Below, piece by piece: positions 32,111 to 61,355 of a stretch of DNA of 64,000 nucleotides. The position numbers were made by a program, and so were the translations under genes. The first letter of the stretch is position 1; the number at the start of each line of letters is the position of its first letter. Source of the stretch: Straminergon stramineum (taxonomy: Eukaryota > Streptophyta > Bryopsida > Hypnales > Calliergonaceae). The stretch is taken from assembly GCA_963920665.1 (NCBI GenBank), contig OY987272.1:11475001-11539000 (forward strand), in the 5' to 3' direction. The notes beneath the pieces are model-generated. The model was given only the letters and a program-made list of their open reading frames with translations, searched no databases and was not told the DNA's origin.

Positions 32111-32802
32111 TCCAATCTCAAATCACATTTTTACCTTCTTTCAAGCACTTTCACATTTGACCTCAAAATCTTTCATCTTTCACTCCTTTTCTTTCATGAA
32201 ATGGTGAAACCTACTCTACAAATTGCTCCTAATCTTCCCATCTCCTACTCTTTTGCAATTCATGCTCCAAATGCAAACAATTCACAACATTCCTCTCAAA
32301 ACACACACACCAAAAATTCACAAAAGAGAGAGAGGGCTCTAAACCTTAGTTTTGCCTATATCCAACTTTCTAACAGATTAGTTTTCTTAACTACTTTCAT
32401 CCTACACTAATTCACTGTAAATCCGCTAATTTAGTGTGAAATACCCTAAATTACTAAAAAAAACACTCTAAATTACTCAAAAACTCCTATTTTAGTGTTT
32501 CTAGCACTATTTAAGTGTTTTACTAACTACACTAGTGTTTTAGTCATAGTTTTAGTCTAACTAACTTCTTTCATGTTTTATTATTATTTATTATTTTTGT
32601 AGTTTTTAATTTACTTTTAGTTTCATTTCCTACTTCTCGTCTTTTGTTTTCATTTTGATTTTTCATTTTTGGTTTTCATTTTGTCATCATTTTACTGTTA
32701 GCTTAGTTTGGTTATTCTACCAAATCTTGCTTAACTTATTTTTAGTTTTAACTCCCCATTTTTTCCCTAGAATTTCCCCTAATTTCCTCCTAATTGCATT
32801 TT

Positions 32803-32833
32803 AAGGCCTTATTCGTTAAATTGAGACAAGATG
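32803..32833 (+). repeat. Left terminal inverted repeat and subterminal motifs
   Basis: Matches the reverse complement of the right end with two mismatches in about 31 bp. Immediately inside, the word TTGAGAC or its inverse recurs: GGTCTC at 32835-32840, TTAAATTGAGACAATT at 32881-32896, AAATTGAGACTT at 32901-32912 and ATTGAGAC at 33041-33048. Such subterminal clusters are usual transposase-binding sites in cut-and-paste elements. Confidence 0.85.
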
Positions 32834-33352
32834 AGGTCTCATTTTAATTCACTTCTATATTTAGAAAATAAAAGAGTTCATTAAATTGAGACAATTCAAC
32901 AAATTGAGACTTAAAAATGTCCAAGTAATTCTTTCATTAATTTAATTATTGCTAGAAATAGCAAGAAGAAGCCGCATTCATCTTTTGAACATTTTTACTT
33001 CATTAAAAATATACACTTTAAATCATGCAAGATGTCATCAATTGAGACATTTCTTGAAATTGAGAGGTGCATCTACGAAAGGACTAATCTTTAGGTTGTT
33101 GATACCAAACTTTAACATCTTAAACATCTTTATTACAAAACATTCAAATGAATAAACTTAATGTAGAACATTCAAGAGAAATAAGAAGATAAAATATACT
33201 ATTAATAGAAATCAACAATTGTAACACAATCAAACTACCCTAATAAAATGGACAAAATATATTTCTGCGAACATCTCAAAACATGTAAATGCAAAGTCCA
33301 TACCACTTCACACCCTACAACAAAAACTACTTATATACCTATACACTGTTAT

Positions 33353-36202
33353 TCATCCTTCCGCCATAGACTCATCATCGTCTGAATTAGCCTTGAAGGC
33401 TTCCACTGATGCTTTGATGATGTCAATTTGAGGCTTTGAAATTGCCACCCTTGGATCTGAAGTCCCCTCTCACATACGTGGCTTCCAAGTGGTCATGATA
33501 TAGTCTGTGCTCGACCATGTTGGGGTTATTGCTCGATCTTCACGCCACACATTCCCTTTTTTTGTGTCCCATCCATCATATGTTTCCATGTTAATGTGTC
33601 GATCTGAAGCTGGCGTCCAATTTTGGATTTGGATCATATTCATATGCCCTGGATCCGGATTTGGATTCGTAATGACTCTAGCAAGCCATAATGGCTTGGA
33701 GTCACCGTTAGCACGCCGCACTACAACAAAATAACCTGCGAACGTATCGCAATTAACACGGAAAGAAGCACGGGGACAATCACGCCTTCGTCCAACAAAG
33801 GGTGCATCCTCTGCATCCCCTTCAGGTAGTGTACCATCCCTCTCCCTGTGTTCTTCCTCATCATGGATGATCCTTGAAGTTGGCCAAAATCCATGTAGTA
33901 ATGTCTCACGCGGCTCTAGAGGTGCATTAAGAGCTGCTCGAACACCTTTCCAATACTCTTTTATAGGGCCATTTTTCCTCCTGAATTCTCTAGATTGGTC
34001 ATCGTCTGCCATTCCGCTCCAGTGTGCAATGAAACCGTTCAAACCTCTCTTGATCTCATCGAGAGAACGCATCTTCTCGGGAACTAGAGGTGGTGGATCA
34101 CCGCTTGGAACTATTGGACGCCCATCTTCAATCTCAGACCACAAGCGAATTCCTTTGCCGTGCTCTGGCAACCATTTCTTATCCATATATAGATTTTTAT
34201 ACTCCATCAAAGGCCATCCACTAGAATCCATGTAAAACTTGAACTGTTGGGACCTAGAATGACCTTCCAAAAAATCTCCTCCTGTGCCCAAATACCCATC
34301 TACATATCGCTTGAAATTAGAAACCTCCTCGATGAGATGAGGAATGACGGGATGCATTTCGCAATCCATGAAGGATTTCATGAGTTTCGGAAGTGTTGGA
34401 TAGTTGTTTGTCTTCAATTTAGTGCTCCACCGACCAAAAAGAGCGTCAATGTCTTCATGAGTGTGCCCAACAATGAGGAAATTGATGTACACTTCGCGGA
34501 AAATCCCTTTGTATATAAGTAGGGAACAAAAAGCAAAAACCCATCTATTCTTATTGTCCCCTGATGCATTATCCAACTACAAAGTCAATATTGGTGGTAA
34601 AGGTTGAGCTGGAATTGATTCTTCCGGAGGAGGAAGGAGAGAGTCCAAGCAAATATCTGCCTCTTCCAGAATAGCCTTGGTTAATGTGGATTGCGTCTCC
34701 TTTTCAGAAAATAACTTGCGCGATGAATTCTTTGGTGGTTCTTCAACATCACGCAACAACTTTGCGATGGACCCAATGGTATGATTTGAATTTGTCGGAA
34801 AAATGTCTAAACTGTAGTGTGCATATCGAACATCCCCATGCCCATGAGCAATCATACCTGTAACTGCAACAGGCATTTTCATGTAGGAATCCATTGCTTT
34901 AGTTTTGTGAGAGAAGTGTGGAGAAGCGGTCTTGGAGTGATCCATTTTATCATGGATAATGGTTAGCATCTTCTCAGGATATGTTTCAGAAACATGTCGA
35001 TTTGCATAGTATAGTTCTCTATGGGCCCTTTGGCCCACAAGGTGGGTATCCAAAGCAACAGTTCACCTCTCTTGTGCATACAAAAGGGGAGTGCACGCGC
35101 TCCTCAATTGCTTGTATTTATCACACAAGCCACATCGAGCGAAACTATCTCCACGTGCTTTTGGAGCAAATTCTGGGAAAAAAGCACGTCGAATGTTGCT
35201 CAAGCCACTCGAAGAAATTGGTTGCAAATTTAAAGTTGCATTGGCCTCATTGATTTTTGGTAATTGATCACTCAAGTGAAATGCAGACGGCAAAACCATT
35301 GTAGGGACTTTCTCCCCTGATTCCAGTGTCCTTGTTTTGTCTGGCATTTTGTCAGCTTCAAGAACCACTAGTGTCCGAAGTGTTGCAGTAGCTTGCACAG
35401 TATGTTTCCTTGGTTTTTTGGACCCCAAATTTCCATGCGCCTCTGCTTGCTTCCCATCCTTGGCCATCTCTTTGTACCTATAAAAGGTAGCCTTTGAAAT
35501 CCCATGAATGGTCCACCATGCAGTGGGACACACTTCCCTCCCTTTCAAAGTAATCCACTCTTTGCCAACAGGATCTTTGTGGATCTGCCTATACACTTCA
35601 AGAAGACACTTCTTCCGAGCATATACCCCATCGTTTACATGGAGTTCAAAATGAATGGCTTGAATTTGCCCACACGGAAAAGGCTGCAAACAATTGTTTG
35701 GACAACAAGTTTTGGTAGAGACTTCATTGATCGCTTGAGGAACCATGAGGGTCTCTTTTTCGGGATAACTAAGCTCCATTCTCTCTCGAAAACTTTCATA
35801 GGACCGAACCCCTTTACGAATTCTTCTATTAGTAGCATTCATGGCCGTGTTATAAATATGCGTTTGGTCATGGTCATACAAATTGACACCAAAGAGAAAA
35901 ACTCGCTTGATGTGCCAAGAGTGAATTGACCACATCCACTCGGTTGGGACTTCTGCCTCCCACAAGGACTGCACAATTTGAACGGAAACTCGATCATCAC
36001 CAAGAGGCTTCCCATCGCTGTCTACCACAACATCTGGATCGACACTCTGTAATACTACATTCGCAACATCGTCTCCTGCTTCATTACAAAGAGTGACCAA
36101 TTTAAAGTTCCATTTTGCTCGAGGAATCCCATCACAAGTACAAACATCAGGGTCTAACGTAGGGACCGGGTTTGCAAAATCTTGAGGTCCATGAATATCC
36201 AT
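33353..36202 (-). pseudogene. DUF7869-like DDE transposase, nonsense-mutated
   Basis: One continuous 949-codon frame, broken only by TGA at 35063-35065, TAG at 34577-34579 and TGA at 33470-33472, without a frameshift. Visible features: a CCPNNC cysteine motif (residues 166-171), a helix-turn-helix-like segment VCPTAWWTIHGISKATFYRY (224-243), HGN (256), and FARCGLC (354-360). Then come three acidic motifs in the order of an RNase H-like DDE core: HDKMDHSKT (D418/D421), LDNASGDNKNR (D544) and VGHTHEDIDALF (D584/D586). The last two are the signature I know from proteins annotated DUF7869, widespread in mosses, lycophytes and animals and presumed transposon-derived. The TAG replaces the residue just before LDN, usually Gln. 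An acceptor-like TTTCCCGCAG sits directly before the ATG, so the 5' leader is probably spliced. Confidence 0.75.
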
Positions 36203-36353
36203 TCTGCGGGAAACGATGAGCGATCAGATGGTCTCACATGAACTACAGAATGCACCTATAGATTATACACTAAATAGGTCATAAATCTATTGCAGCGAAT
36301 GATAAATATGCTTTAATACTAAGGGTCAAACTCAATCGTAGAATATGCACATT

Positions 36354-37761
36354 TATCATCGACTCGATGATATAACTCCAAGCCAGTCAGTGGACAAAAA
36401 CCTTTATCATTGAGTTCATAATATTAGTACACGATCAACTAAATGTGCCACACTCAGTTTGAAACAAAACACTATATGAAATAGACAATATACACAACCT
36501 ATACTTCAATCGTTTGATTACACAAAGAATTCTTAACCTGAAATCGATGTGAACCCCCAATTTCTGAATTTAAGAATACACACTTCCAATTCCCTGACAC
36601 ACTAATCACAAAGTAAATCTGACTATCCTCAAACCAAGGATAAAATACAGAATTGATTATAACTCAATAATTTCAAGTAAAAAATATTCCTCATTCATAC
36701 ATTCATAAAGTACAAATTTCCAAATAGAGTCACAAACATAGAGAGTCTTCAACGAACAATACTAGAACTATTCTCACCATAATGTTCGAAAGCATATGCC
36801 AATTCATCAACTCAATTCATTATTTATCCAAGATTAGAATATTATGGTCAAAGTTAAAAATCGGTATCCTCGAGTCGACGATAGTCATCAGAGAGTCCTA
36901 AAATATAGACAACATAACATATTTACAGATGGGGATTACCGATATTTACAATTTCTAGTGGATATTCCTTGTTATTATATATAACTCCTACTTTGCCTCC
37001 AGTCGTAGTTAGTATTGATATTTTCCTCAATAAAAGGATAATGTCATGAAGACATGAACGTCATCGTCCAATCGAAGAGACTCTGTCAGAGATATTCTAC
37101 GGAACATCAATCAAACCTTCTCCCAATATAGTCTGAAAATATATTACAAATTATAAACCTTGTCTACTAGACGAATATGAATCAGAATATTTTTCTTCAA
37201 GTTAATTATAAGTATCGTCGACTCGATGATAATTTTTTGTAGAATTTAGATATATCTACATTCCGTCACTGTAATATTAAATTGAGTCCAGTCAATTCAA
37301 ATCTATTATAGAGATCATTCATATAAAAAAACACTGTGACTTATCCTTGACTCAACGATAAGGCAATTGGACCAATTATGTTCTTGAATATATTTCAATT
37401 TCTAAACAGAATTTACTACTCATGTATAAGTTCAAAGATTCATGTAGAAGTTGAAAATAGGTATCGTCGAGTCGACGATAACACTCTGAGAACTAAAGAA
37501 CATCAACCTATCAGTAGTAAACCCAGAGGATGGGTAATATCCATTTAGATATGCAATCAGACAACATTATTCTTCAAAATATAAATCTGAGACTTATCCT
37601 CGAGTCGACGATAAGACCCATATATTTCTTAAGAATACAAATATCGTCGGGTCGAGGATACGATGGATATGAAGCAAGAATTCAAACCATTCCAACTTGT
37701 TAGTGACACCACGATTGTGCAGGAAATATTATGTTTAATGGATATCGTCGACTCGAGGATA
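36354..37761. repeat. Left-leader cluster of eight 19-bp palindromes
   Basis: Copies start at 36354, 36865, 37213, 37342, 37462, 37595, 37642 and 37743. The copy at 37462 is TATCGTCGAGTCGACGATA. Variants differ mainly at positions 5 and 15 (G, C, A / C, G, T). The copy at 37342, TATCCTTGACTCAACGATA, has lost both inner CpGs by transitions. The cluster lies upstream of the transposase gene, presumably in its 5' leader or leader intron. Half-site-like words also occur at 37859-37867. Confidence 0.9.
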
Positions 37762-38099
37762 AACTTTAGATCATCATAATGTTCAATTCTCCGTGATTTT
37801 CGGCGACTATTTCGGACGGCGTATACTTCACTATCTCGATGATGCACATTACGAGCACTATCGTCGAACACAATAGAGAACAAATTGCTCTGATTCAATC
37901 TTCTGCTAATGAAACTACAAATCTATAAAGAATGAGACGTAATGTATACCAGTAACGGAAGACGTGTCCACGACACAAATCACATATCAAATCACAATAC
38001 TACCTACGAGAGACTGCAATGAATGTACACACACCTCTTCTGAGAATTCCCGCTATCTGAACAAGTCTACTGCAAACAAAGGTGGATTGGAAATGCTGA

Positions 38100-38500
38100 A
38101 AACAAAATTCTGAAGCGTCCTGGAGGTCATAGATGAGCAACAAAACTCACGATGAGAACAATCAAAAGCGAGGGCTGTGCAAACACAACACAGATGCAAC
38201 CTCAAGGTGCAAGGGAGAGAAGATAGAGATTCCGCTGATCGAGGGCGGGAAAGAATTGCCGCGGGAATTCAAATTCCCCGGAAAAATGGCATCTGCCAAT
38301 ATTTATGGTCCACTTTGTGTGGCAGCGCATAAATGCCGTTTCATGTGCCGATTTCTGTCAGCTTTGCAGCGTAAAGATGCGGCTCAAGAACAATAGTAGT
38401 CCCAAAAAGGCTTCTCTAACACCAGCCCAGAAATGGATCCAATAACACCAACCAAAAAAAGGCCTTATTAATAACAACCAAAAAAAGGCTTTCAAAGTCC
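38100..38500 (-). promoter_or_regulatory. Probable promoter region of the transposase unit
   Basis: A GC-richer patch about 2 kb upstream of the transposase ATG. On the minus strand a TATA-like CATAAATATT (around 38300-38310) precedes a GC-richer stretch that could be the first exon. Just upstream, 38400-38500 has three copies of CCAAAAAAAGGC-like words, one extended to AAGGCCTTATT like the element's termini. This is positional inference only; no start site can be read from sequence. Confidence 0.3.
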
Positions 38501-38700
38501 CAACAAAAATTATTCGTTTGTTTATAGTTTATATGCTATTCATGCCGTTGTATTAGCTACTGTTCATGTGGATGTCAATTCTAGGGGATTTCTAGAAAGT
38601 GGCTTCTTTAATTACACTTTGTCCACGGTCCAGATTTCTTAAAATATCATTCCTTTAACGGTTTGGGGTCCTATGGATGTGTAGTGTAGGTTTCATGCCT

Positions 38701-38729
38701 TAGGGTTTAGGTTTAGGGTTTAGGGTTTA
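38701..38729 (+). repeat. Short interstitial telomere-like tract
   Basis: TAGGGTTTAGG then TTTAGGGTTTAGGGTTTA: three to four plant telomere units, one incomplete. Preceded by CCTTAGGGTTTAGG-like text, so probably a chance or promoter telo-box cluster rather than a chromosome end. Confidence 0.7.
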
Positions 38730-39739
38730 TGATTTCTGATTATGAACAATTCCAAATTTCTCGTATACAAATGTGCAATCTACTAAGTTTCTTAGGTAAT
38801 GCAAGTTATATGAAGTTCATCATTTGATTCTACAAAAGTATTCTTTAAAAGCTCTGCATTTGGGGGACATTTTTTACTACATTTTTTTCCATGATTCGTT
38901 TACAATCATGTGTGAACTTTTTTGTGTATTCATAAAATATGGCATTTACAATTATTGTATGCTTAAGTAATTCGTCTACAACTCACAGTACGAGTACTAC
39001 TTTACATATACAATACAGAATTTTTGGATTCTACTATAATTCTGTTTTCCTTAATATGTACTAATTCTTTATTCATTGAAATGTAAAGTGAATTCATTTT
39101 TAGTGTACTTCTTGTTAATATTTATGGATATGTATTTGTGAAGTGATCAGCATATGTCATTGCTCAATGGCAATTTACTATGCATTTGAAAGTCTACTAG
39201 TATTGGAATCATTGTTTAGTAAGAAGATTTAACTCTTCAAAAGGGTAATGATGACATCAAGCATTTGGTGCATGCCAAACAATTGTACGTGTATGATGAG
39301 ATGAAATCATGTTCCTTAGTACTTGTAGTTTTATTACTAAAAATTTTAAAATATCGGTAAACCCTAAATATTTGAACTCCAAAAAATATTCTTCACTTGG
39401 AAAAAAAATAATTTTAGACAATGTAGATAATTGCATACAGTTTTTTAGGACTTTAGGCTTCTAATAAATTAATTATTTTAGATAATTATGTTTCATATTG
39501 TTTTGTTTTAGACTAAATTTATTTGAGGGTTTACATTTTAAGATGATTTGAACTAGTTCACTATTTCTTTTGTCAAATTTTCAATTTCACCTATTTCATG
39601 CTTAGCTCAATTCATTTCAATTTTTTCTATGAAGTGCTAATGAAAACAATTGTTCCAGACTTCTACTTGAGCAATTTTCACTTATAGTTTTATGTGTACC
39701 TAGACACCCAAGTTCAAAATTAAATTTCTTTCTTATAGA

Positions 39740-40718
39740 ATGAATGTTTTATGGTACTTCATTAACAAAGTGTTTAGGTCACTCATAAAATTCAAGAAGT
39801 TGCATTAAGTTCCCATGGTTATTTTAATAAACTTGATCTTTGTAAGGTTTTAAAGAAAATTTAATTGGATTTCTTCATGAATGTAGAATTAACCAATGTT
39901 TTTCTATTACAAAGTATATACAACAGGGAACAATACTCTGAATTAGTTGTTGTATTAAAATTTCAACTATTTTGACATAAATTTCTGGCTTTATTTGAAC
40001 ACTTGCATGGTTCACTGAGAAGATGATGTTAATTTCATATAATAAATTAAAATCTAGTGCGTGTATTTGACCAAAACAATAGAACAAAATATGTATTAAA
40101 TTCTTTGAATGTGTTCAAGGTTTTATGGGCTTGTATTTGAAAGATTTATAATTATAGATATTTTGAAACTTATATATCTTTTAAATTCCTAAAATTTGGC
40201 ATATCATACATTTATTTAAACTAGAATGGAAAATTCTTCATTTAAAATTTGTTTGAAACTGTTAATGTGGAAAAATGCTATGAATTATGCTTGGGAACTA
40301 CAATTCTTCAAATAATTATACACTTCTAAATATTTTTTGAACCCCATTAATCAATAAAGAATCCATGAGTTCCAAAATAAGAATTTTTTATAACTCTATA
40401 GTAGAACCCAATGGATATTTCACTAAGTTTCCATGATTATTTTAATAAACTTGATTTCTTTACGGTTTCAAAAGAAATTTTAATTTTATCTCCCCATAAA
40501 TGTAGAATTATTGTGTTCCTTTTTTTCAAAAGTATATATAATACGAATTAATACCCTTGAATATGTGTTTTATTCAATTGGCAACGATTTAGACAAAAGC
40601 TTTGGAAATCATCCTAATACTTGTATGGTTCACTGGAAAGATGATGTTAATTTCATACAAAAAATTAAAATGTAATGTGCATATTTCACCGAAACAACAT
40701 AATAGAATATGTATTAAC
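39740..40718 (+). repeat. Diverged tandem duplication, period about 640 bp
   Basis: 39740-40100 and 40390-40718 share, in order, TTATTTTAATAAACTTGAT, AATGTAGAATTA, GGTTCACTG.GAAGATGATG then TTAATTTCATA, and ATATGTATTAA. Non-coding, and diverged by many substitutions and small indels. Confidence 0.7.
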
Positions 40719-42529
40719 CCCCCCCCACCCCACAAGCCAAAATCTAGCCTCTCTGAATTCAATTTGGGCCAAAATCACTTTGAATTGTGGTGGTATTGCC
40801 CTCCAAAATGTACAAGGGGGTAGGGTACAAGAAGGTAACATTGCACCCAGATTTTGAAGAGAATTGTTGTTGTACATTGGAGTGGGTTTAGGAATTGATA
40901 TTGTAAGTACAAGGAGATTTGCTTTATGAACATTCAAATTATTCATGAACTTTGAATGGAAATATGCATCCTATTTAATTGACTCCATCCAAAAGTTCTT
41001 GTATGTATTTTTATTATTTTTTTTATCAAACATAACCCAAAACCCTATAAATCCTTGTTGTATGGATAATTACTCACAATTTCTATATTCATAACTTCTT
41101 AATATGCGTAGTAAACTATGATGATCAATCGAACGTACTATATTTTTGTTGACTAGTAGTGTGGGCTCTTTTCAATTACAATAGAAACTATTGAATAATA
41201 CTATAATGTTGGAATGTTTCATTTTCATAAAATAATGTCCTTGTTTCATTTTATTTTGTTGATGACTGATTTCAATGACTGAGTCCAAAACTTGCTCAGT
41301 CTATTTTCGTGATAAATGTCGCGTGCAACTATGAAATACCACTTGTGCCTTCAATTTAGTTTTTTGAATTATAGACAACCATAAGTTCTAATTTTTGTTC
41401 TTCTAGTTTCTTGAAATAAAGTCCCTACTTTGTGGTCCACTTCATTGACATTCTCAATAGATGCAATACTTGTGAGTTTATAATATTAGTACAAGTATAA
41501 AATATAGGGAGGATTCATAATTCATGAAAATAGTAAAGTCATGGGTTTAAGGTTTAAATCACAATGATGGGAATGATTCATGAGAATTTGAATTGTAGTG
41601 TTGGTTAAACATCAATTATCAATATTTAAGGAATACACTTAGGGGCCTCAAGAAAAATTGGGCAACCACTATTTTTAAAGTTGGTATGAATGTTTTGACA
41701 AGAATTAAAACATTTTCTTGCTTTGAATGCTAATAATTATACTCAAACTTTGGAGTACATTCTGTTGCTATTTTTAAATATAGTATTAATGTTTAATTTT
41801 TGTACATGAAGCCTTAACTCGTGAGTGCCTTGGCATCCGTTTTTCTGGGTGATGAATAAATTGGACATGAAGTTTCATCCTCATTAATGCTTGGATGAAA
41901 ATCATCCTAATTTGTGTGGATACTTTTTGAAGATGTTGTTCTATCCGATGGTAGGATTTTAGTGCTATTATAGCACCCAATTTTCTAAAATTGAGTAAAG
42001 TACCCAAATGTCCAGTACTTGACCAAGCTAGAATTGTACTCACTTTAGTTCAAAATTTGATTAGCCCAAATGAGGTCATAGATTTTTAAAACACAAACAT
42101 TTCAAAATATCATGATGTCAACATACCCTCATTTGAAATCCATTCCAACAAATTTTACTCCAACCTTTCGTAATACTTTGCTTATAATCAAATGTAGAAA
42201 GAATTTTTGAATTTTCATTCAAAATTAATGAAAAAATAGTAGTGAGATTTTAAACATATAGATGGAATATACAACTCATACTGCACAACTTTTATTTGTA
42301 TAACAATAGTTTCAATATGCTTCCAAATAGCACTTCCTAATGATTTTTCTCAAATTGTCAACTTTGAGGTGAACATTTAATCTCTGTTGGATAACATAGA
42401 CGATTTATGTTAACGATAAAAGTGCAAGTAACTATTTATCTTTGTAATTCTTTGAGAAATTTTGAGTCAATTTTTAAAATTGAAGTCTGCAAGTCTTGGT
42501 TGAAAATGGTGGCTTGGCTTTAGGGTCGG

Positions 42530-43060
42530 CTTTGTATTTGGGTGGACATCTCTAGATTCGGGTAGTCATTTCCAGATTCGGATGCGATTGGCGGCTCGGC
42601 CTCAGCATCGAGGCGAGTTGGAGGGTCAGGTGTAGGTTTGGGTGCAGGTTCGGGAAGCAAGTTCAGGGTGCAGGTTCGGGTGCACGATCGGGTGAGATGG
42701 AGGTTCGGTTTAGGGTTGGCGTGGCCTCGGGAGGTCATCTCCCTCCTCGCGACACGCCTCTGTCTGTTTGCTTGCTGCAGTCTCTCCTTGCGCTGCTGTA
42801 TCTCCTCTTCCTCGCCGCGTTGTCTCTCCTCCTCGCGCCGCGCCGCCTCTCCTCCTCCTCGCGACGCGCCTGTGTTGCTTGCTTCTTTGAGTTGTGAGTT
42901 GTAAGTTGTGAGTTGTGAGTTGTGAGGTGTGAGTTTTGAGTTGTGAGGTGTGAGTTTTGAGGTGTGAGGTGTGAGTGATTCGTTTTTGCTGTACATTTGA
43001 GTGGTTGCATCTTCCGGAGTGCGCTTGAGATCGTCTGCTTTGTGGAGCGACTCTGCAATT
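42530..43060. promoter_or_regulatory. GC-rich island upstream of the multidomain gene
   Basis: A sharp rise in GC and CpG in an AT-rich surround. It contains repeated GCAGGTTCGGG words (42640-42690), two CCTCCTCGCGAC-RCGCC words (about 42735 and 42858) and a 7-bp tandem repeat (42890-42977). Frames are open on both strands at once, which argues for low-complexity DNA rather than a gene. By position it may be the promoter and 5' end of the plus-strand unit. Confidence 0.35.
42890..42977 (+). repeat. Tandem repeat of GTGAGTT / GTGAGGT, 7-bp unit
   Basis: About twelve units with G/T swaps (TTGTGAG, GTGTGAG, TTTTGAG). On the minus strand it would read as a TPHNSQL-like peptide repeat, but this follows from the repeat and is not taken as a gene. 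Confidence 0.85.
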
Positions 43061-43646
43061 GCAGATTTCAAATTCTTCATTCTTTTGTATTTGCGCGTGG
43101 GGAGCTGTGATCTGCAAGTTCAGCTCTTCTCCTATTTTCAATCTTTGCTTCCCTCTTGTGTTGTGCAAGTTTTCTTGTGTGCATTTTCTTTTCTTTTCTT
43201 GTGTAAGTTTTCTTCTTCTCCTATGTAAGTGCTACACACTGTGGTTTGGGTTTTGGGTTTTCTAAGTTGGATTTAGGGTACTGTTGAATTCTTGCACTCT
43301 TCTGTGTATTCCTGATTTCATATAGGTTGTTGTGTTCATGTAAAAATTTGGGTTTTAGGGTTTAGTATTACCAACTTAAAAATCAAGAATTAGAATGCTC
43401 TCTAGTCTTTCATTTAAGGCACATTCTTATATTTTTGTTCTGATCATTGAACTACACTAATACTGTTCTTGTATGACTCTAGATTTCCAGTGTGTGTTCC
43501 AAATTCACAATTTGGGTGGGCAAGTCAGTTGACAAGGATTTGCAAGAATTTGCAATTCAGGTATGCAAATCATCTCCAATACGTAGGGTTCATGCGCTAA
43601 AATTAGGGTTTCTGTTGTGAAGAAGACATTACAAGTACTTATTAGA

Positions 43647-44284
43647 TATCCTCGAGTCGATGATACTTGATTTTGATAAAATGAGATATCGTCGAGTCGA
43701 GGATAACAGAAATATCAATCGTTTCAAACTTCTAATGATAATTAGAGAAAGCTAATTAGCACTTATAGAGGTCCGGTTAGAGAACCTTGATATACTACAA
43801 TTAAAACAACACAAACAATTGTATCATCGAGTTGATGATAAAACTATCGAACTCATGCAAACTCCATAAACCATCTCCTCATAAACGAATATAATGAGGA
43901 AAGCAATCGAACGAGATAACTAAAATTTTAATCAATTCGTCACCCTATCTGTAAAGAAATTAGAAGAAATTAAAAGTAATTCAAAAGCTTTGTGATCCAG
44001 CCTATACTTTCTAAACTCAAAGAAAGTATCGTCGAGTCGATGATACTCTAAGCTACTTATATACTTTGAAATATCTAATACTACAATTGAATTTTACACT
44101 AGACTCATCTTATCGTCGAGACGACGATAAACAGAGATCATAACGACCCATAGAAACCCATCACTTAAAACCAATTAATTTAAAGAAAATTTATTATATA
44201 TGTATAATAGTAGAATTACGTATATTGAACATCATGAAAATGAAAGATATCTCGAAGCATTCTGGTATCGTCGAGTCGACGATA
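43647..44284. repeat. Right-leader cluster of six 19-bp palindromes
   Basis: Copies start at 43647, 43687, 43822, 44027, 44111 and 44266. The last is identical to TATCGTCGAGTCGACGATA at 37462. The cluster ends about 150 bp before the ATG of the multidomain gene and mirrors the cluster in front of the transposase gene, so the two divergent leaders carry the same sites. Confidence 0.9.
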
Positions 44285-44431
44285 CCCATTTCAGAATCAT
44301 ACTAGAACTTCCAATCTTCCAGACATTCAACATACTAAAGAAGTCCTCAAAAAGCTAAATCATTTACCCTTCCAATTGGTTTCGACTATAACATTTCTCA
44401 TCTAACCAATGTAATTTGATATTGAACAAAC

Positions 44432-45847
44432 ATGGAAGACAACTACAACTACTCTGTAACAAAACATCACCTCCAGCCATTCGTAAATCCTCTCAACGAT
44501 GAACCATTCATCGTTGAGATGGAAGACACATATGGGATGCTTTGGGAATTTAAGGAGCATATCCACACATGGAGTTTTGGAGTGAATCGCTGGAAGAATT
44601 ACGTCTATCTCCGCTATCGTATAGCCAGGAAGACGAATTACACGCCGTGGAATCTAAAAGAGAAAGTGACCCTCATCGAGGAACATCAAGGAAACTATGT
44701 CCTCATTGTTTTGAGAGAAGTTGACGACAGTGGCAAAAATAAAGACCACTGCCACTCCATTGTTATTAATGTAAATTCCTATCATGGGAAATTCGACCTA
44801 GAGAATCTCATGACTTTTCTCGGGGGGTCTCAAATGGAGTACCTGAATGAGGAGTTTCAAAAGAGCGGGTACGTCCCATGGAAGAATAGCACGGCAAAGT
44901 CCAACGCCTCAAGATTGCGCCTTATCTTTCAAACGCTGGATCGATATGCATTAGAGAATGTCGAGCCAGAACCTGCGATCGGTCGTAATGTCAGCCAGGG
45001 AAGAAGAGATGAATCTGATTCCCGTCTGAGACAATCTTCTGCTGCTGTTGGATCAGGGAGTAGAGGAACTAGGCCTAGTCAAACAAGATCAGAGCAGAAA
45101 CGAAAAGATACGGCCCCATCTGGAGGACTTGAATCGAGCAGAAAAAGGAAGAAAAGCCTTCCAACCGGAACCGGGGCTGCTGGTAGTTCTGGATCGGCGT
45201 TGACGATGGTCTCGGTAGGTCCTTTGTCCACCACCGAACCTCAAGAAGATTACGAGAGGTTTGCCCTTATATAGAGAAACTTTTGGGCTGAACACAAGCC
45301 ATGTTTTCTTCTAGGATCGGAGACCGTGTCCGTTGACATTAAACAATGCATCATCGCGAGTGATCAGTATGTAATTCGGACGTTGCAGAGAGACATAGTT
45401 GAGGCGGTAAAGAAAGAATTGATCCAGCTTATTGACATTAAGCAGCGACAGAAAGTCTGTCTTACGCCCGTGGACAAGAATCGTCAACTTCTAAAGAAGA
45501 AGCCAGAGAAGTGGGAAGAAATAGAACGTGGCCAATTCATGATCATAAATGGCCAGCATAGTATTACCGCCTCAAAGGAACTGCAGAAGGCAGGATGTGG
45601 AGAGGCCCGTAGAGTGGAGCTTCAGAGATGGGATGCATACATTGTTTGGTCGCTAGATCATAACAAATTGAGGAATATTTCAAAATTCTATAACTGCACT
45701 AACCACTTGGACCACGCACAACTGACTCGGGGAAACCAAATCGTCAGTTGCCGAAACATCTGGTTGGCTTACAAACGGCCAACGGATGATCGATTAGAAG
45801 ATGCGACAAGGAATAACAATTCCGTTGTCAACGTCACAAATTATAAG
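44432..45847 (+). pseudogene. Exon 1: unknown domain plus ParB/Srx-like domain
   Basis: Residues 1-180 are an aromatic-rich domain I do not recognise. Residues about 185-265 are a disordered, basic/serine-rich linker with the NLS-like SSRKRKKS. After the TAG at codon 281 comes a ParB/sulfiredoxin-like fold: a V.VD...........R segment, a helix (DIVEAVKKELIQ), a strand KVCLTPV, then MIINGQHSITASKEL with G374, Q375 and H376 at the place of the ParB box (I.G.HR..A), and a strand region up to residue 472. ParB-family domains bind nucleotide and act in DNA partition, or as nucleases or regulators on phages. Here Ser follows the His, where Arg is usual in ParB. The DGQHR proteins of bacterial phosphorothioation systems are a related alternative. 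Confidence 0.55.
44492..44518 (+). other. Perfect 12-bp-arm hairpin within exon 1
   Basis: CTCAACGATGAA, spacer CCA, TTCATCGTTGAG. It lies 60 bp after the ATG and encodes LNDEPFIVE. The arm word ATCGTTGA differs from the palindrome half-site ATCGTCGA by one transition, so it may be a related protein-binding site or a coincidence. Confidence 0.6.
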
Positions 45848-45995
45848 GTAGCATCCTATGGGCCCTTTAATTACAGAATCGTTTTATAATTCACTGAATG
45901 ATTTGCAATGTTGTTATATATTGGTCTATTCAAATTATTTTTGAATTCATTAATCCTTTCTACGCTTTCTTTGAATAAAGAAGCGAGTCGTGGGC

Positions 45996-46014
45996 TATCC
46001 TCGAGTCGAGGATA
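45996..46014. repeat. Palindrome copy in intron 1
   Basis: TATCCTCGAGTCGAGGATA, fully symmetric, 60 bp before the 3' splice site of the 230-bp intron 45848-46077. Confidence 0.9.
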
Positions 46015-46077
46015 CTGAGTCAGGAAAATCAATCGTAGGTGTAAAACATTCTCATGTTTTATATTGGCATGTTTCAG

Positions 46078-47403
46078 AAATTCACAGATGTAGTTGTCGA
46101 GTGGTTTCAAAATATCAACCCAGAGAAAGACGGCACATTGATTGGCGGGACGACAGATCTGAAGAATGAAATTCAGATAATAACATTGCTGGATGAGCTG
46201 TGGAAGCACTGGCAAGTGTTCTTAACTAAGCACGCTGCAGGCGAATTGATTGACCCGGTCACCTTTGCTCGATTTAAGGAGATCAAAGGTTTCAAGATAA
46301 AGACAATGTCACTGAAAAGAGAATTTTTCAAACATTGTGGCCATTTCACTGACAACGATTTTGGGACCTTTGCACAGCATCTCCTTGGTGAGACACCGAA
46401 ACAGCAAGCTGTTTACCCCAAAGTCTTTGTGTCAAAAACCAAAATTCTTGTTCCGGACAATCTCTCACATGGTGATTGGGTGGAGAGGAGGAAGCGGAAG
46501 AAAATTGTGCTTCAAGATCTGATGGCCATTAAGCCCGCTTTAAAGTTTACGAATAGCGGTGGGGACGTCATTGATAAAACATGGAAGTCTTGGAAGGCGA
46601 GACACAGGTTTACATCAGCAACATGGGATTTCCTCATTTCACACCCCAAGGCCGAATATTTCAAGAGGCGTCTTAGAAACGATGCATGGCTCAAGCGCGC
46701 AAAGGATCTTGAGAAGCCATTTCCGGAGGTGCTGCACATGTTTACAAGATTCATGAAGTTGAAGTACCAACTTCAGGACCAAAGCGGTGGAGTTCAAGTC
46801 AAAGGAATCGACATGTCCGCCAAGGTGCTGGTGACAAGTACCACTTATCAGTACCATAGTCAGGAGATTGATCTTGCAGTTCTGGATGTGCGGGAGGTGC
46901 AAAGAACAACACCGAGTGAAAATATAAGCGCCATCGACCTTGTCCTCGATTTCCTCCTTCAGAAATTGAGTCCGAAAATGACTGAGCCAAATGTGTAGCT
47001 CTTCATTTTGGAAGACAAGGAAGATGTGAAGGCTGCAATTAGGTTTGCAACTTCCAAGCTCGTGTAGTATGAGTATGTACTGTCTACGTACGTACCAAGA
47101 AAAGCAGAGATGCTCAATAATGTCACCAATCGAGGGACTGCTCCTAATGTTCCACTCTTATTTCTTTTTAAGAAAGGAAATACTTTTGCAAGCGCCGCTC
47201 GGGAGTTAATGAAGTCCAAGTATGACACGCCCTCAAATTGCGTGTATTACCTGGATTCTTCAAAAAATACAGAGGCAAAGTGGAGGATTGAGCCTACTGA
47301 ACTCATAATGGAGTTCTACCTAGACATCCTGCACGCTTTTGCGACGCCAGAGAAAAACATTCTCGACCTGTATTCGGGTGCGAAGTTCATGCTTGCTGCG
47401 AAG
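46078..47403 (+). pseudogene. Exon 2: degenerate N6/N4 methyltransferase-like domain
   Basis: Residues 473-914. The order of elements is that of a beta-type amino-methyltransferase: a strand ending EIDLAVLDVRE (742-745) where motif IV (DPPY-like) is expected, then a helix and strand NVxLFILEDKEDVKAAIRFATSKL, a strand with VLSTYVPRK, the LFLFKKG strand, the WRIEP.ELI..F segment, and motif I-like ILDLYSGAKFMLAA at 900-913 (D902) just before the splice. DVRE in place of DPPY and the loss of the second Gly of motif I suggest it no longer transfers methyl groups. ParB plus DNA methylase fusions are common in phages, which supports the assignment. Two TAG stops (46996, 47065). The N-terminal third (473-700) is unassigned. 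Confidence 0.5.
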
Positions 47404-47438
47404 GTAAGTATGCCCACTCTCGGAGTCTTCGAACTAGT

Positions 47439-47532
47439 TATCGTCGATTCGAGGATATAGATGGAGTTCTGTTTGATTACTTATTACTTTCCCTTGCTAG
47501 TTTAGAATTATGTTATCCTCGACTCGAGGATA
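47439..47532. repeat. Two palindrome copies in intron 2
   Basis: TATCGTCGATTCGAGGATA at 47439-47457 and TATCCTCGACTCGAGGATA at 47514-47532, both within the 206-bp intron 47404-47609. Confidence 0.9.
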
Positions 47533-47609
47533 ACATCAAATGTCCAGAACTTGTATTTTAGAATGCAACCTTCATGATAATCTCTAAATTCTCTCTTTAT
47601 TTACTGCAG

Positions 47610-49073
47610 ATGTTTGGAGCTTTTTTCTATGGTTTTGTCAACAAGGATGACGCGAAGTCGTATCTGCGAATTTCGAGTCTGGCGAAGAAAATGGATAAAA
47701 ATGATTTTATGTTCTCGAATTCGCCTTATTCGTTGTTGTATGAAAAAACAGCTGGTCGTGGACCTGTGGTTGTTCATTCAAACTCTCCCCCGTCACCGCC
47801 CATGTCATTTGACTCACCGCCTGTAGCGGCCATCCCTCTTAACAGAGAAAGAGAGACGATGGGTCCTCATGTGTGTAGTGATCCCGGCGTGGAAGGCATC
47901 GATGAGTTCGGAACCAACACGTTTCAGATTCATACGTGGATGTCGACTCCAGTCTCGCCGCCTATACTGCAAGGTGCAAACGATGAAGAGGATATGGAGA
48001 CAGATTCGGAATTTGAGCGCGAGCAACAACAGAGACCAGTGCTTCCATCCTGAGGGGCTAGAATCGAGGCCGAGCAGGATGTGATCATCAACGAAGTATT
48101 CAGGCCTGATGACATCCCCATCATGGAAGAACCACAACCTTCTCAGAGAAATAATATCCCGACGTCGCAGGAGGCTAGGGTTATCATCATTAGCGATGAT
48201 GATGACATTGATCATCCCCATTCCTCGGATGAGGAGGAGGAGGAGGAAGGCATTCTGCCGGTGACAGAGATGAAACCCGTCATTGCACCCTCCGGTGTGG
48301 TCGTCAAGGTGGAGAAGGATTGGTGGCAGAAGGACAAGGAGAAGCGAGAGAGAAGAATCGCACGCAAGGCGGAGAAAGAGGCGAAGGAGTAGGAACTGGC
48401 AGATGCAGTTGCGAAAAATGCAGAGACAAATGCCAAAATGCAGGAGGAGTCGCAGGCGCAATTCTCTCAGTTGAACAGTTAGGTCGCAATGCTTCTGCAG
48501 GCGATGAATTCGCAGAGCAGCCAATCTCAAGGCCAACTCCCCTTTGTTTTTAAGGCTCCAGCTCCTCACCCTTTGCCTTCGACAGTCCATGGTCCTGGCT
48601 TGCAGGAAATTCAAAATCCAATACCTGTAATCTCTTATCCTCGGGTCGAGGATAACCAGGACTATGTTTCCCTCGCTCATAAGGATCTGGTGAGCTCAAC
48701 ACCAGTATCCCAACTACCACGGGTTTCTTCTCCGAACCAAGGGGCATTCGAAGTCCTTGTTCCTGGAGGTGCGGATGTCTCTCATGTAGGAGAAGATAGA
48801 GAAGTTCCACAGTAGTATCATCAAGGCGATGATAAAGGTGAAGTGGAATCAGGGCTTGTTTCACAGGCAACGGAGATGGAGACACCGGTGTGCGGCACAT
48901 CGTCTCAGGTCGTGGAGGAGTTGCAATCACCTTTATCCGCAGAGGAAGAAAGGGTCGACTACGAAGCAAGTGAGGACGAGACCCAAGATAATGTGGTAGA
49001 GGAGATCCAAGGGAAGCCTCCTACTACAACGGCAGTGGGAGGGGATGAGCCTCAAGAGCATGGATCCGCTCAG
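47610..49073 (+). pseudogene. Exon 3: end of MTase fold and disordered acidic region
   Basis: The first about 45 residues (MFGAFFYGFVNKDDAKSYLR onward) complete the methyltransferase-like fold. The rest is low-complexity: SPPSPP, then VIIISDDDDID, which has the form of a SUMO-interacting motif, then EEEEEE, a charged coiled-coil-prone segment (KDKEKRERRIARKAEKEAKE onward) and a Q/S/P/E-rich tail. TGA at 48051 and TAG at 48390, 48480 and 48813 interrupt it, all in one frame. Two palindromes lie in this exon. If intron 3 is not used, the frame ends at TAA 49104-49106. Confidence 0.55.
48636..48834. repeat. Two palindrome copies in exon 3
   Basis: TATCCTCGGGTCGAGGATA at 48636-48654 and the decayed TATCATCAAGGCGATGATA at 48816-48834. 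These are the only copies inside predicted coding sequence and both fall in the disordered part, where an insertion would be tolerated. Confidence 0.85.
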
Positions 49074-49360
49074 GTACAACCCTCTGACCCATACGGTTTC
49101 GATTAAGTCAATAGAACTTGAAGTCGATCATGTTTGTGTGTATGAAGAGTAGGGACAAGGCTTTGAGTAGTCATCGAATCTCATATGTACTCCTACTGCG
49201 TGGCAGGATGGTGTGGCCACTTGTTGATTGCTTGCGCGTGGACTACATATATGTTTGCGGCTCCTTCTCGTGTAGTCTAGTGTACCATAGTTCTGTTAGA
49301 ATAGATTTTGCGACCCTATTTGAAACAGAAAATTTTCACCTGTATCATGTAATCTATGTA

Positions 49361-49366
49361 AATAAA
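49361..49366 (+). terminator. Possible poly(A) signal
   Basis: AATAAA in TGTAAATAAAATATG, 255 bp after the TAA that ends the exon 3 frame. If used, it would end a shorter ParB-MTase transcript before the FCP1 part. Confidence 0.35.
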
Positions 49367-49596
49367 ATATGCACATTTTTCAAATATCCTGTAGCCTAAT
49401 TGGATCCTCTTTTTGATGTTTTGGGTAACCAGCTCCAAAAACTTGAAAGTGTGCACCGCCCATTGCCAATGAAAGCACTTCCCACTGGGAGACCGCAGTC
49501 GATTAGTGGAATTCAATGCATCTCTCCCCTTTCTGGCTCACTCGTTTCTGCGTTTAAACAGGTAACTTCATTTCTTTGTTGTTATGCTTTGATCAG

Positions 49597-50430
49597 GTAG
49601 TAGCGGAGGGCGGAAGAGAGATCGTGCCCAGGAATGTGCCTCCTGGACTTCCTCCACCGCGGAGGAAGTGGATGAACATTGTCTTCGACTTGAACGGCAT
49701 ACTCTATCAAACAGCGATGAAGTCCTACGGGGAGAAATTCAAACCGTACAAGCTCGAAGACAATGTTCTCTGCCACAAAAATCCCACAATCATCGGACCC
49801 AAGGCGGTATTCGCTCAGCAAAATCTAGGTGAATTCCTCTGGCAGGTGTCCGCGATCGCAGATAGGGTCTTAGTGTGGACCACCATGTTGAAGCGTAATG
49901 CAGAACCCATCGTTGGACACCTGTTCAATGGTTGTAGAGCACCCTATGATATACTCAGTCAAGAACAGTGCAAAAAGATAGAGTATTCTCCGGGAAAGTT
50001 CTTTCATCTGGCTGAGCAAGTGCATTGTATGAAAGTGCTCTCCGAGACCTTGTTCTGCAATCCGAGCGGGGGCACGTCTTTCACCTTGGATAATACGCTT
50101 CTCATTAACGACTCTCCGAACAAGAGTGTCTGCAATGAGAATGGAAATGCCATATTTCTAGACTCTTGGAGGCACCATAATCGCAGAGACGACGTCCTCA
50201 TGGGGGAACTCCTGCCATGGCTCAGACGTCTAGATTCGAACTACCAACCGGGCCAAATGCGGACATACATCAAGGAAAACCACATTGGTCTGAACCCATT
50301 GGGAGCAAGGGACTACAAGGTGGACCACCTCATAGACGCGATGAGAGAGTCATCGAAGGTCATGGGTTCTAGATACGAGCTCCCTGGAATAGGCGTAATC
50401 ATAGAGCGAGGCCGACGTAGGAAGTACGCT
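49597..50430 (+). CDS. Exon 4: FCP1-like (NLI) phosphatase fold, DxN variant
   Basis: An uninterrupted HAD-type FCP1 homology domain. Motif 1 is IVFDLNGIL (D1433, N1435) where active FCP1/SCP phosphatases have DxDx(T/V). Motif 2 is VLVWTTMLKRNAEPIV, and motif 3 is NTLLINDSPNKS, followed by N..NAIFLD.W. FCP1-family enzymes dephosphorylate the RNA polymerase II C-terminal tail. A DxN form of motif 1 also occurs in some plant FCP1-like proteins, so the change may be ancestral, and it would cost the general acid/base residue. This is the one exon without a stop. The frame runs on to TAG 50437-50439 if the GTAAAG donor at 50431 is not used. Confidence 0.75.
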
Positions 50431-50661
50431 GTAAAGTAGATTCTCTCTAGGTGTGAGATAGCAATTTCTGTATAGTCCTCGATTTGTACGCTACGATCTT
50501 CTGTAAATAATATATTGAGTTTGCATTTCTCTTAAATCTTTGCCATGTGCTTGGAAGGGTCACCATTCATGTCTCCCATTCTCGATTGAAGTTGCCTTTG
50601 CATTATATTTATTCGACGGTGGATAATGTGGGTGGGCTTCTGGAATTTGCACGTATTGCAG

Positions 50662-51582
50662 GTTGGAGGAGTTGATTTTGTTGAACCGCCGAAAAGGCAA
50701 AGGCTGACCAAGAGTCTGCTCTCCGGATCAGAAAGGTCGCTCTCCAACCAGTCCGAATCCGAGGGGGGGAGTTGCGACACAATTCCGTATTCCAAGCCAT
50801 ACATGTTGCGATCTGCCACAGACACCGCATCTGCGGCCATAGACTATTCCAAGGGGGACGTGGAAGAAGGTGTCGTGGACAACCCCCCGAGTCACGGACC
50901 TGTCAGGACTCCCATCTGCTCTCCTTCGCCGCTGAAACGGGCATCCTCGACCCAAGGGGACTCGTTCTCCCCTGCTCCATGGATCGATGCTACAACCAGT
51001 CGTAAACTAGACCTACCACTTGACAAACTGGCAAGTTGTCCTTGGCTCGAGGATGCACTTCAATCATCGCTCGCGATTCAGCAGCTTCCTAATGACATTG
51101 CCGAACGTAAGGCGACGCCTGCGTTCGACCATGAGACAAAGAGTGCATTGCCCTTGCCCATGACTGTTGCTCTTGGACCTCGGCTCCAAGATAAACAGCC
51201 TCATCCCTCGCTGTCTGCTGGAGCCAGACGATCTCCTTCTGCCGACAGTCTCTTTCGGCAACGAATTTTCAGAGATCACAGGCGGTCGCTCGACTCAAAA
51301 ATAGATGGGGCTTGACTTCCATATGTGGACAATGTCAATGCATCGCTACCGAGGCTACCTCCTCGAGGGTCAAAATTGCTTTCGACTTTCGAGCTGCCGC
51401 AAGCTACTCGAAGGCCAAAGCGGAAAGACAATGGATCTCAAAGTTTGGATTTGCGCGGCACATTGGACGGTGGAAGTGGGTGACACTATCATTCCCGACG
51501 CGATGATATCTTTAAAGGTCTAGCAAAGATAAAAGCAATGGAAGCAACCAAGAGCAATAGTACAACCAATAGTGATGCCTAG
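50662..51582 (+). pseudogene. Exon 5: basic and serine-rich C-terminal tail
   Basis: Starts after a TTGCAG acceptor with VGGVDFVEPPKRQRL, which holds an NLS-like PPKRQR. Rich in S, P and charged residues with no domain I recognise. TGA at 51313-51315 and 51481-51483 interrupt one frame that ends at TAG 51580-51582. Its phase-0 acceptor fits the donor at 50431, making it the tail of the FCP1 protein; it could instead be the last exon of a separate gene. Confidence 0.4.
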
Positions 51583-52062
51583 GTGACCAACTGAAGTTTC
51601 TGAAGCGAAAGGAACTTTGGGGTCTCTTTTACTATTAATAGCGTAGAAAATAATCACAAAAAAATACCTAAAGTAGTTCAGTACTCTTACATGTACGGTA
51701 ACGCTCCTTGTTACTACTTACATTCTAGGCAATCGTTTGCCTTCATAATTCAATCACTTCAAAGGACACTATGAACAAAAAGTTACATATTCTTTGTGTA
51801 TTCAATCTCCCAAATAAGTCAAACGGATTCAATTGAAATTCATTTGCATTTCATTTTTCCAAGGGCTTTGGTACATTCTTGAATGAACGTCTTCATATGT
51901 CTTTTCATGAGTTCTTGCAATCGATGCAATTCGACTCACTTGTTTTAAGTCATTTGAACCCAACCCTTATTCAAAACTATGTGTCCTTGGTTTTTATCGT
52001 TGGGTTCAACAACTATTACCTCAATGAAGCTTCGCACTCATTTTTCAAAGTCTCAAAATAAC

Positions 52063-52093
52063 CATATTGTCTCAATTTAATGAATAAGGCCTT
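52063..52093 (-). repeat. Right terminal inverted repeat
   Basis: Reads GTCTCAATTTAATGAATAAG then GCCTT at 52069-52093, the reverse complement of the left end apart from one G/A change. A further inverted copy of the subterminal word, GTCTCAAA, lies at 52050-52057. The sequence right of 52093 is unrelated to the element. Confidence 0.85.
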
Positions 52094-52251
52094 TTTTCAA
52101 GTATCTTGCTCTAACCTCATAAAGTTTCCATTGCTATTTAGCAGAAAATTCCCTAATTGATGGTTATGGCTTAATCCAGAGTATTAACACTTCTAGATTT
52201 GTGAATTTAAGAAAATTGTTTATATTTTCGATTTTTTAAAGGTGAACCAAT

Positions 52252-61118: not shown

Positions 61119-61355
61119 TGCTAATATGTGAGCCTAAGAATGCAAGCTTGTGAGCATTGAACTTATATGAAAGGTACCTATAATATAGATACCATACACT
61201 ATAGAAGGTGTACGTATCATAAACACCTATAATATGGATATTTGTAGCATATATATCCTATAATCATAGATAGTTTCTATGGTATGTACACCTATAACAT
61301 AGGTGTGTAGTATTATGGGCTCATGGGCTCACACTCCTATGCTCATATAATAGCA
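61119..61355. mobile_element. Hairpin MITE, TGCTAG family, copy 2 (237 bp)
   Basis: Left end TGCTAATATGTGAGCC, right end GGGCTCACAC...CATATAATAGCA in inverted orientation, with TATAATATAGATACC-type words inside. One base longer than the copy at 9046-9281. A right-end fragment (GAGC-type words ending CATGCTAGCA) lies just upstream, ending at 61034. Confidence 0.65.

Follow-up and report, generated by a model that had tools for sequence, protein, structure and literature searches.

A family-specific palindromic word in moss transposons and its candidate element-encoded reader

Introduction

A 64,000-nucleotide stretch of the Straminergon stramineum genome, referred to here as the window, contains a transposon in which a 19-bp palindrome recurs many times. 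The locus raises the question of what reads this word, and to what effect. The first-pass annotation suggested either an operator or a partition-site-like element for a dimeric DNA-binding protein. The analysis described here points, with moderate confidence, to a family-specific word that is likely bound by a dimer of an element-encoded protein, most probably the product of a gene with a predicted ParB fold (gene 2), and that would keep both divergent genes of the element expressed. Sequence-specific binding and the direction of the effect are what we infer from the arrangement and evolution of the sites.

The transposon and its palindromes

The element is a TIR transposon of 19,291 bp (32803-52093). 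Its 31-nt TIRs are 94% complementary, and a 4-bp TSD flanks all three copies examined: TTTT in the window, and ATTC/ATTC and CTTC/CTTC in two others. The named relatives of the transposase belong to two moss genera, Ceratodon and Physcomitrium. The termini and coding parts are as follows.

32803..32833, + strand: left TIR, 31 nt, beginning AAGGCCTTATTC, with TTTT before it (32799-32802)
33470..36202, - strand: DUF7869 transposase gene (PF25273), one frame, with two in-frame stops in the window copy
44432..45889, + strand: gene 2, first exon, with bounds taken from the ORF and an in-frame TAG at 45272
46045..46998, + strand: gene 2, c2 exon, helical, present in 18/18 loci
47068..47460, + strand: gene 2, further open frame
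47562..48053, + strand: gene 2, further open frame
49558..50439, + strand: NIF/FCP1-like frame (PF03031)
52063..52093, - strand: right TIR, 31 nt, followed by TTTT (52094-52097)

The NIF/FCP1-like frame is matched in the four distant loci of sufficient length (L039-L042), and similar frames occur in E1 and E2. The motif of the NIF/FCP1 family is DxDx(T/V), and the frame carries DLNG at that place.

All 19 annotated palindromes were found at their listed starts in a scan of the window. Eight precede the leftward transposase gene and six the rightward gene 2; a further three fall within predicted introns of gene 2, and the last two are inside or next to open frames on the 3' side. Two decayed sites, both aligned with sites in a consensus of 29 copies, extend the list.

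36354..36372: palindrome 1, transposase-side cluster
36624..36642: decayed palindrome, 3 mismatches; the 29-copy consensus has a 1-mismatch site here
36865..36883: palindrome 2
37062..37080: strongly decayed palindrome, aligned to a 2-mismatch consensus site
37213..37231: palindrome 3
37342..37360: palindrome 4
37462..37480: palindrome 5, exact consensus
37595..37613: palindrome 6
37642..37660: palindrome 7
37743..37761: palindrome 8
43647..43665: palindrome 9, gene-2-side cluster
43687..43705: palindrome 10
43822..43840: palindrome 11
44027..44045: palindrome 12
44111..44129: palindrome 13
44266..44284: palindrome 14, exact consensus
45996..46014: palindrome 15, predicted intron 3' of the ParB-like exon, a gap with a site in 17/18 loci
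47439..47457: palindrome 16, start of the predicted intron 3' of the c2 exon, overlapping the end of frame 47068-47460
47514..47532: palindrome 17, sharing its predicted intron with palindrome 16
48636..48654: palindrome 18, within an open frame (YPRVED)
48816..48834: palindrome 19, directly past an open frame

Thirteen of the 19 sites match the consensus TATCNTCGANTCGANGATA without a mismatch; four differ at one position (37642, 43822, 44111, 48636) and two at two positions (37342, 48816). The number expected from shuffled sequence at up to three mismatches is 0.00. The central base, annotated as G or C, is G at 13 sites, C at 5 and T at one. The variation noted at positions 5 and 15 is present, and the two positions vary independently, being complementary in only 9/19 sites. 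Independent variation of the arms is expected of two half-sites on duplex DNA and not of an RNA hairpin. Spacing of 40-511 bp within clusters was also reported correctly, and this irregularity, together with a total spread of 12.5 kb, rules out a CRISPR or a satellite.

A scan with the words of five related families, described below, found no site in the 44.7 kb of the window outside the element at up to three mismatches to any word. Inside the element, the same scan returned 19 sites, consisting of 18 from the annotated list plus 36624, with 48816 falling under the threshold. A single isolated site with four mismatches lies outside the element at 61254.

Genome-wide distribution

The search covered 326 Mb in 59 contigs. 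A strict pattern for the word of the window element (family 1) occurs at 356 places, versus 0 for a reversed control. Each of the 59 exact matches to the consensus has a family-1 transposase or gene-2 match no more than 20 kb away, compared with a mean of 3.2 and a maximum of 10 in 500 random draws that assumed a guessed length for contig C6; the match lists for this test were trimmed by eye to family 1 on the basis of identity (93/108 and 93/150 rows). The transposase alone accounts for 54/59 exact sites at the same distance, and none of the 59 is near a transposase of family 4 or families 3/5.

The strict-pattern places listed are the first ones on contigs C1 and C2. Of four places inspected, two are family-1 elements and two are copies of a 254-bp MITE, whose terminus, AAGGCCATATTC, is similar to that of the element and which holds one palindrome 42 bp inside its terminus. 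The palindrome together with the MITE flank occurs at 273 places genome-wide at up to two mismatches (control 0), and an internal MITE pattern at 292; scoring of the MITE used 40 copies out of 809 candidates. The word marks the family-1 element and a MITE relative, and the outcome that the first-pass annotation named as refuting, equal abundance outside the element family, did not appear. Confinement to the transposon, as first described, thus stands within the window, while genome-wide the word is also present as single copies in the MITE. A viral origin was considered separately: a general form of the pattern is found in 8 IMG/VR stretches, with one palindromic place each and no relative of the transposase, and is probably there by chance.

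Conservation of the sites

Conservation was measured in an alignment of the region upstream of the transposase in 29 of 30 family-1 copies (L031 was dropped after failing an orientation check), scored on ten sites found in the copies' own consensus. Conservation of A/T columns is 0.960 inside sites versus 0.888 outside (p 3e-10; the p-values of this comparison overstate significance, since the copies share descent and their own consensus supplied the sites). Non-CpG C/G columns score 0.983 versus 0.835, and CpG columns 0.894 versus 0.747. Six of the ten consensus sites are in register with listed sites of the window, two with the decayed sites at 36624 and 37062, while the remaining two are missing or gapped in the window; three of the ten are poorly kept across copies.

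Family-specific words

Related elements in the same genome carry related but different words. The copy at L035 and L036 (family 2), whose transposase is 64% identical to that of family 1 over the N-terminal 379 residues, has the word TATCTTCGANTCGAAGATA and the same site layout as the window element. Fifteen distant loci, where the ParB-like domains are 30-37% identical, carry other words: three have T[TC]AGCTCGANTCGAGCT[AG]A, seven have T[TC]AGGTCGANTCGACCT[AG]A and five have TCAGGTCGRNYCGACCTGA, a looser word. In the half-site consensus of all five families, positions 6-8 read T-C-G, and the outer positions vary.

When 18 loci were scored against the five words, the table was block-diagonal for families 1, 3 and 4. 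Family 2 was blurred (15 sites of its own word, 3 of family 1, 7 ties), as was family 5, where its own word was mixed with that of family 4 and with ties. The words were drawn from the scored loci themselves, and the genome-wide co-location counts serve as the independent check. A Markov control with two draws for each of the 18 loci gave its sole match in the window's locus (mean 0.5). Among 100 listed of the 172 places with the family-4 word, 69 have a family-4 transposase nearby and none is near a family-1 transposase or gene-2 match. For the family-3 words, 16/42 places are near family-3/5 transposases among the matches listed, and 2/42 are near family-1 matches (random mean 2.9).

The positions of the sites are shared even where the spelling is not. 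Both upstream regions hold sites in the window element and in families 2 and 4. In the one family-4 element that was read end to end, 8 sites precede a divergent transposase that is 46% identical to that of family 1, and 5 precede gene 2. At least 9 of the 15 distant loci, with families 3, 4 and 5 included, have a transposase in divergent orientation, at a distance of 9.6-11.0 kb from the ParB-like match; one of these was confirmed on sequence. Among the matches listed, L059 has its transposase in the same orientation, and L039, L040, L051, L052 and L057 have none within 20 kb. A site is present upstream of gene 2 in 18/18 loci, between the ParB-like and c2 exons in 17/18, and within 1.1 kb 3' of c2 in 18/18. 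The intron sites of family 5 score closest to the word of family 4, and those of family 2 to the word of family 1. Word arrays in tandem occur at L053 (765-1007) and L036 (884-1044).

Because families 1, 3 and 4 have different words at the same positions, the words have changed in step. In a tree of the ParB-like domain, clades coincide with word classes, in a topology where 3/16 branches are starred, several forks are moderately supported, the family-1 fork carries 80/43 and one family-2 sequence sits on a long branch. The proposal of an operator for a dimer is supported by these comparisons: clusters precede both divergent genes, the same predicted introns hold sites in the 18 loci, the sites are more conserved than their surroundings, and the family spellings follow the element's own proteins.

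The gene 2 protein

The first exon of gene 2 encodes, in order, a PH/PTB-like N-terminal domain (a weak match), a disordered linker and a ParB-like domain. The ParB-like assignment holds as a fold prediction, which recovers the N-terminal ParB fold, but no Pfam ParB model matches the domain in a Pfam scan. Where ParB proteins have the P-motif GxxR, gene 2 reads GQHS; among 45 aligned sequences, window included, the arginine position is serine in 43, asparagine in one and a gap in one, so that arginine is absent from 44/44 sequences with a residue there. In the available part of a survey of ParB-fold proteins, R-to-A mutants of GxxR are the non-binding control (PMC12704722). The absence of this arginine makes a CTP sliding clamp doubtful for gene 2. 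The strings "plant", "moss" and "transpos" occur nowhere in the main text of that survey, as available (PMC12704722). Pfam scans of a subset of element frames, plus a fold search with c2, found no ParA-like or HTH family, and Pfam at E up to 1 found neither DUF1985 nor DUF287 in ten element frames and 45 gene-2 sequences.

Who reads the word

Core, symmetry and position are constant, but spelling differs by family within one nucleus, which argues for a co-diverging, element-encoded reader rather than a host factor. Gene 2 is preferred as this reader on two grounds: apart from the transposase-side sites, most palindromes fall in its upstream region or introns, and in VANDAL transposons the corresponding part is played by an accessory protein. 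In such a mechanism, each 9-bp half-site would be contacted by one subunit, with the 1-bp centre between them; a constant protein surface would face TCG and a family-variable surface the outer bases. By analogy with VANC, the bound protein may counter silencing by the host, and do so just for copies that belong to its family, and a single palindrome might let a MITE share in this protection. A broader and more tentative proposal is that moss transposons domesticated a bacterial-type ParB fold without its nucleotide switch as a code for self-recognition, and that family-wise pairs of protein and word, with the words placed in lockstep at matching upstream regions and introns, shield own copies and word-copying MITEs from silencing.

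The same dimer could instead hold down both genes and so limit copy number, as KorB does for RK2. We consider such autorepression unlikely, but it is the strongest of the alternatives. Sites in introns and a MITE site near the TIR are explained no less well by an epigenetic label, KorB uses CTP whereas gene 2 has no P-motif arginine, and plant transposons are usually silenced already by the host. What favours anti-silencing over autorepression is a likeness to VANC targets, seen in the intron sites, the tandem arrays and the MITE that carries the word.

It is doubtful that the DUF7869 transposase reads the palindromes, for autoregulation or for assembly of a transposition complex. While its co-divergence with the word (46% identity between families 1 and 4, and 64% N-terminally between families 1 and 2) and the position of the MITE's lone palindrome, 42 bp inside the terminus, are consistent with this model, the nearest sites in the full element are 3.55 kb and 3.26 kb from its ends. 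Subterminal transposase sites are therefore rejected for the full element, and sites in predicted gene-2 introns also fit this reader poorly.

A host transcription factor whose binding site was borrowed by the element would account for the TCG shared by the half-sites of all five families. This is improbable given that families sharing one genome have different outer arms, which track their element proteins, that every exact family-1 word is near family-1 genes, and that the four strict-pattern places inspected are two elements and two MITE copies with similar termini.

Partition sites resembling parS, tethering or segregating the element, are suggested by multiple palindromes beside a predicted ParB N-domain fold. 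This part of the first-pass annotation found no support, and we regard it as very improbable: no ParA-like family was found in the subset of frames scanned, the P-motif arginine is missing, the sites occupy predicted introns and the regions that precede genes, and the transposon is integrated in chromosomes, where a need for segregation is not evident. RNA hairpins in untranslated regions and introns are the least credible reading, since positions 5 and 15 pair in fewer than half of the sites (9/19), although the palindromes are able to fold and several are in predicted introns.

Comparison with known systems

The Sola superfamily has TIRs, a 4-bp TSD and sizes possibly >15 kb, and is present in the moss Physcomitrella, according to the available part of PMC10741241. 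The element resembles Sola in its TSD, TIRs, large size and moss host, with a transposase known here only as DUF7869 (PF25273); the available text of PMC10741241 mentions neither gene 2 nor the palindromes. KorB of plasmid RK2, as described in the accessible portion of PMC11790492, is a ParB-fold protein and CTP-dependent DNA clamp with a 16-bp operator near promoters. On that description, the parallel is a ParB-fold protein paired with operators close to a mobile element's promoters; the differences are the bacterial plasmid, the CTP-dependent clamp and the 16-bp operator. We know of no family-by-family re-spelling of KorB operators. En/Spm encodes TnpA, which has many short subterminal cognate sites and a link to methylation. 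An element-encoded reader, as proposed here, many short cognate sites and a link to methylation would be shared features, but TnpA sites are subterminal, whereas the palindromes lie at least about 3.3 kb from the ends.

The closest parallels are with VANC of the Arabidopsis VANDAL transposons. VANDALs are Mutator-like, and VANC proteins have DUF1985/DUF287. In both systems, a DNA transposon has its own accessory gene and short words in noncoding regions and introns, the words differ between related families, and word-bearing units are tandemly duplicated. The concentration of family-specific words in noncoding regions is seen here as well, cleanly for families 1, 3 and 4 and blurred for families 2 and 5. 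In the moss system, unlike VANC, the word is an odd-length 19-bp palindrome, the accessory protein has a predicted ParB fold and the transposase is of the DUF7869 type. In the available text of PMC5735166, VANC binds in introns and intergenic regions, at motifs that differ between related families and spread by tandem duplication; the VANC21 motif, the 9-mer YAGTATTAY, occurs in arrays of a single orientation (available parts of PMC5735166 and PMC10398659).

The literature searched contains no description of this palindrome/ParB-like transposon system. VANC already exemplifies the kind, a transposon-encoded regulator with dispersed family-specific words; the moss case differs in its palindrome, its ParB-like protein, its transposase type and its lineage. 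One genome here holds several natural pairs of protein and word, three of them cleanly separated, in which the outer letters changed and core, position and symmetry stayed, so that the evolution of DNA-recognition specificity and transposon self-addressing become directly testable by swaps of word and protein. The model also offers a possible role for a ParB-like fold in a eukaryotic transposon. If anti-silencing is correct, the parts would be candidate tools for directing epigenome editing to particular sequences in plants. The strategy of VANC would then have arisen twice, from unrelated proteins, with transposons arriving independently at a second system of sequence-addressed anti-silencing.

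Palindromes inside and outside the element

Two decayed palindromes, absent from the list in the first-pass annotation, each align with a site in the consensus of 29 family-1 copies (the family of the window element) aligned upstream of the transposase:

36624-36642, decayed palindrome
37062-37080, decayed palindrome

Words of this kind stand in tandem at two extracted genome loci, with a period of about 60 bp at L053:765-1007 and of about 32 bp at L036:884-1044 (part of a family-2 copy), which suggests that site number expanded through local duplication. A single family-1-type palindrome also lies in a 254-bp MITE (L003:1459-1712), 42 bp inward of the terminus AAGGCCATATTC; together with its flank, this palindrome has 273 matching places across the genome.

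Family-1 copies on contig C11

Contig C11, at 17.4 Mb, makes up 5.4% of the genome but has 45 of the 93 family-1 transposase hits. In-frame stops are present in almost every one of these 45. C11 looks like a poorly recombining chromosome that has served as a graveyard for the family-1 element, and is possibly a sex chromosome.

Other features of the element

38700-38729, short telomere-like repeat of TTTAGGG type, in the central region
42520-43080, stretch between the two palindrome clusters, rich in GC and containing tandem repeats of low complexity
42888-42976, TGAGTTG tandem repeat within that stretch
49558-50439, NIF/FCP1-like frame, also present in other element families

P0140, a relative of gene 2, is labelled as coming from an uncultured Synechococcales cyanobacterium; it is perhaps moss DNA placed in a cyanobacterium bin.

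The catalytic motif of the NIF/FCP1 family is DxDx(T/V). The NIF/FCP1-like frame has DLNG in its place, and, judging from this sequence, may encode an inactive phosphatase.
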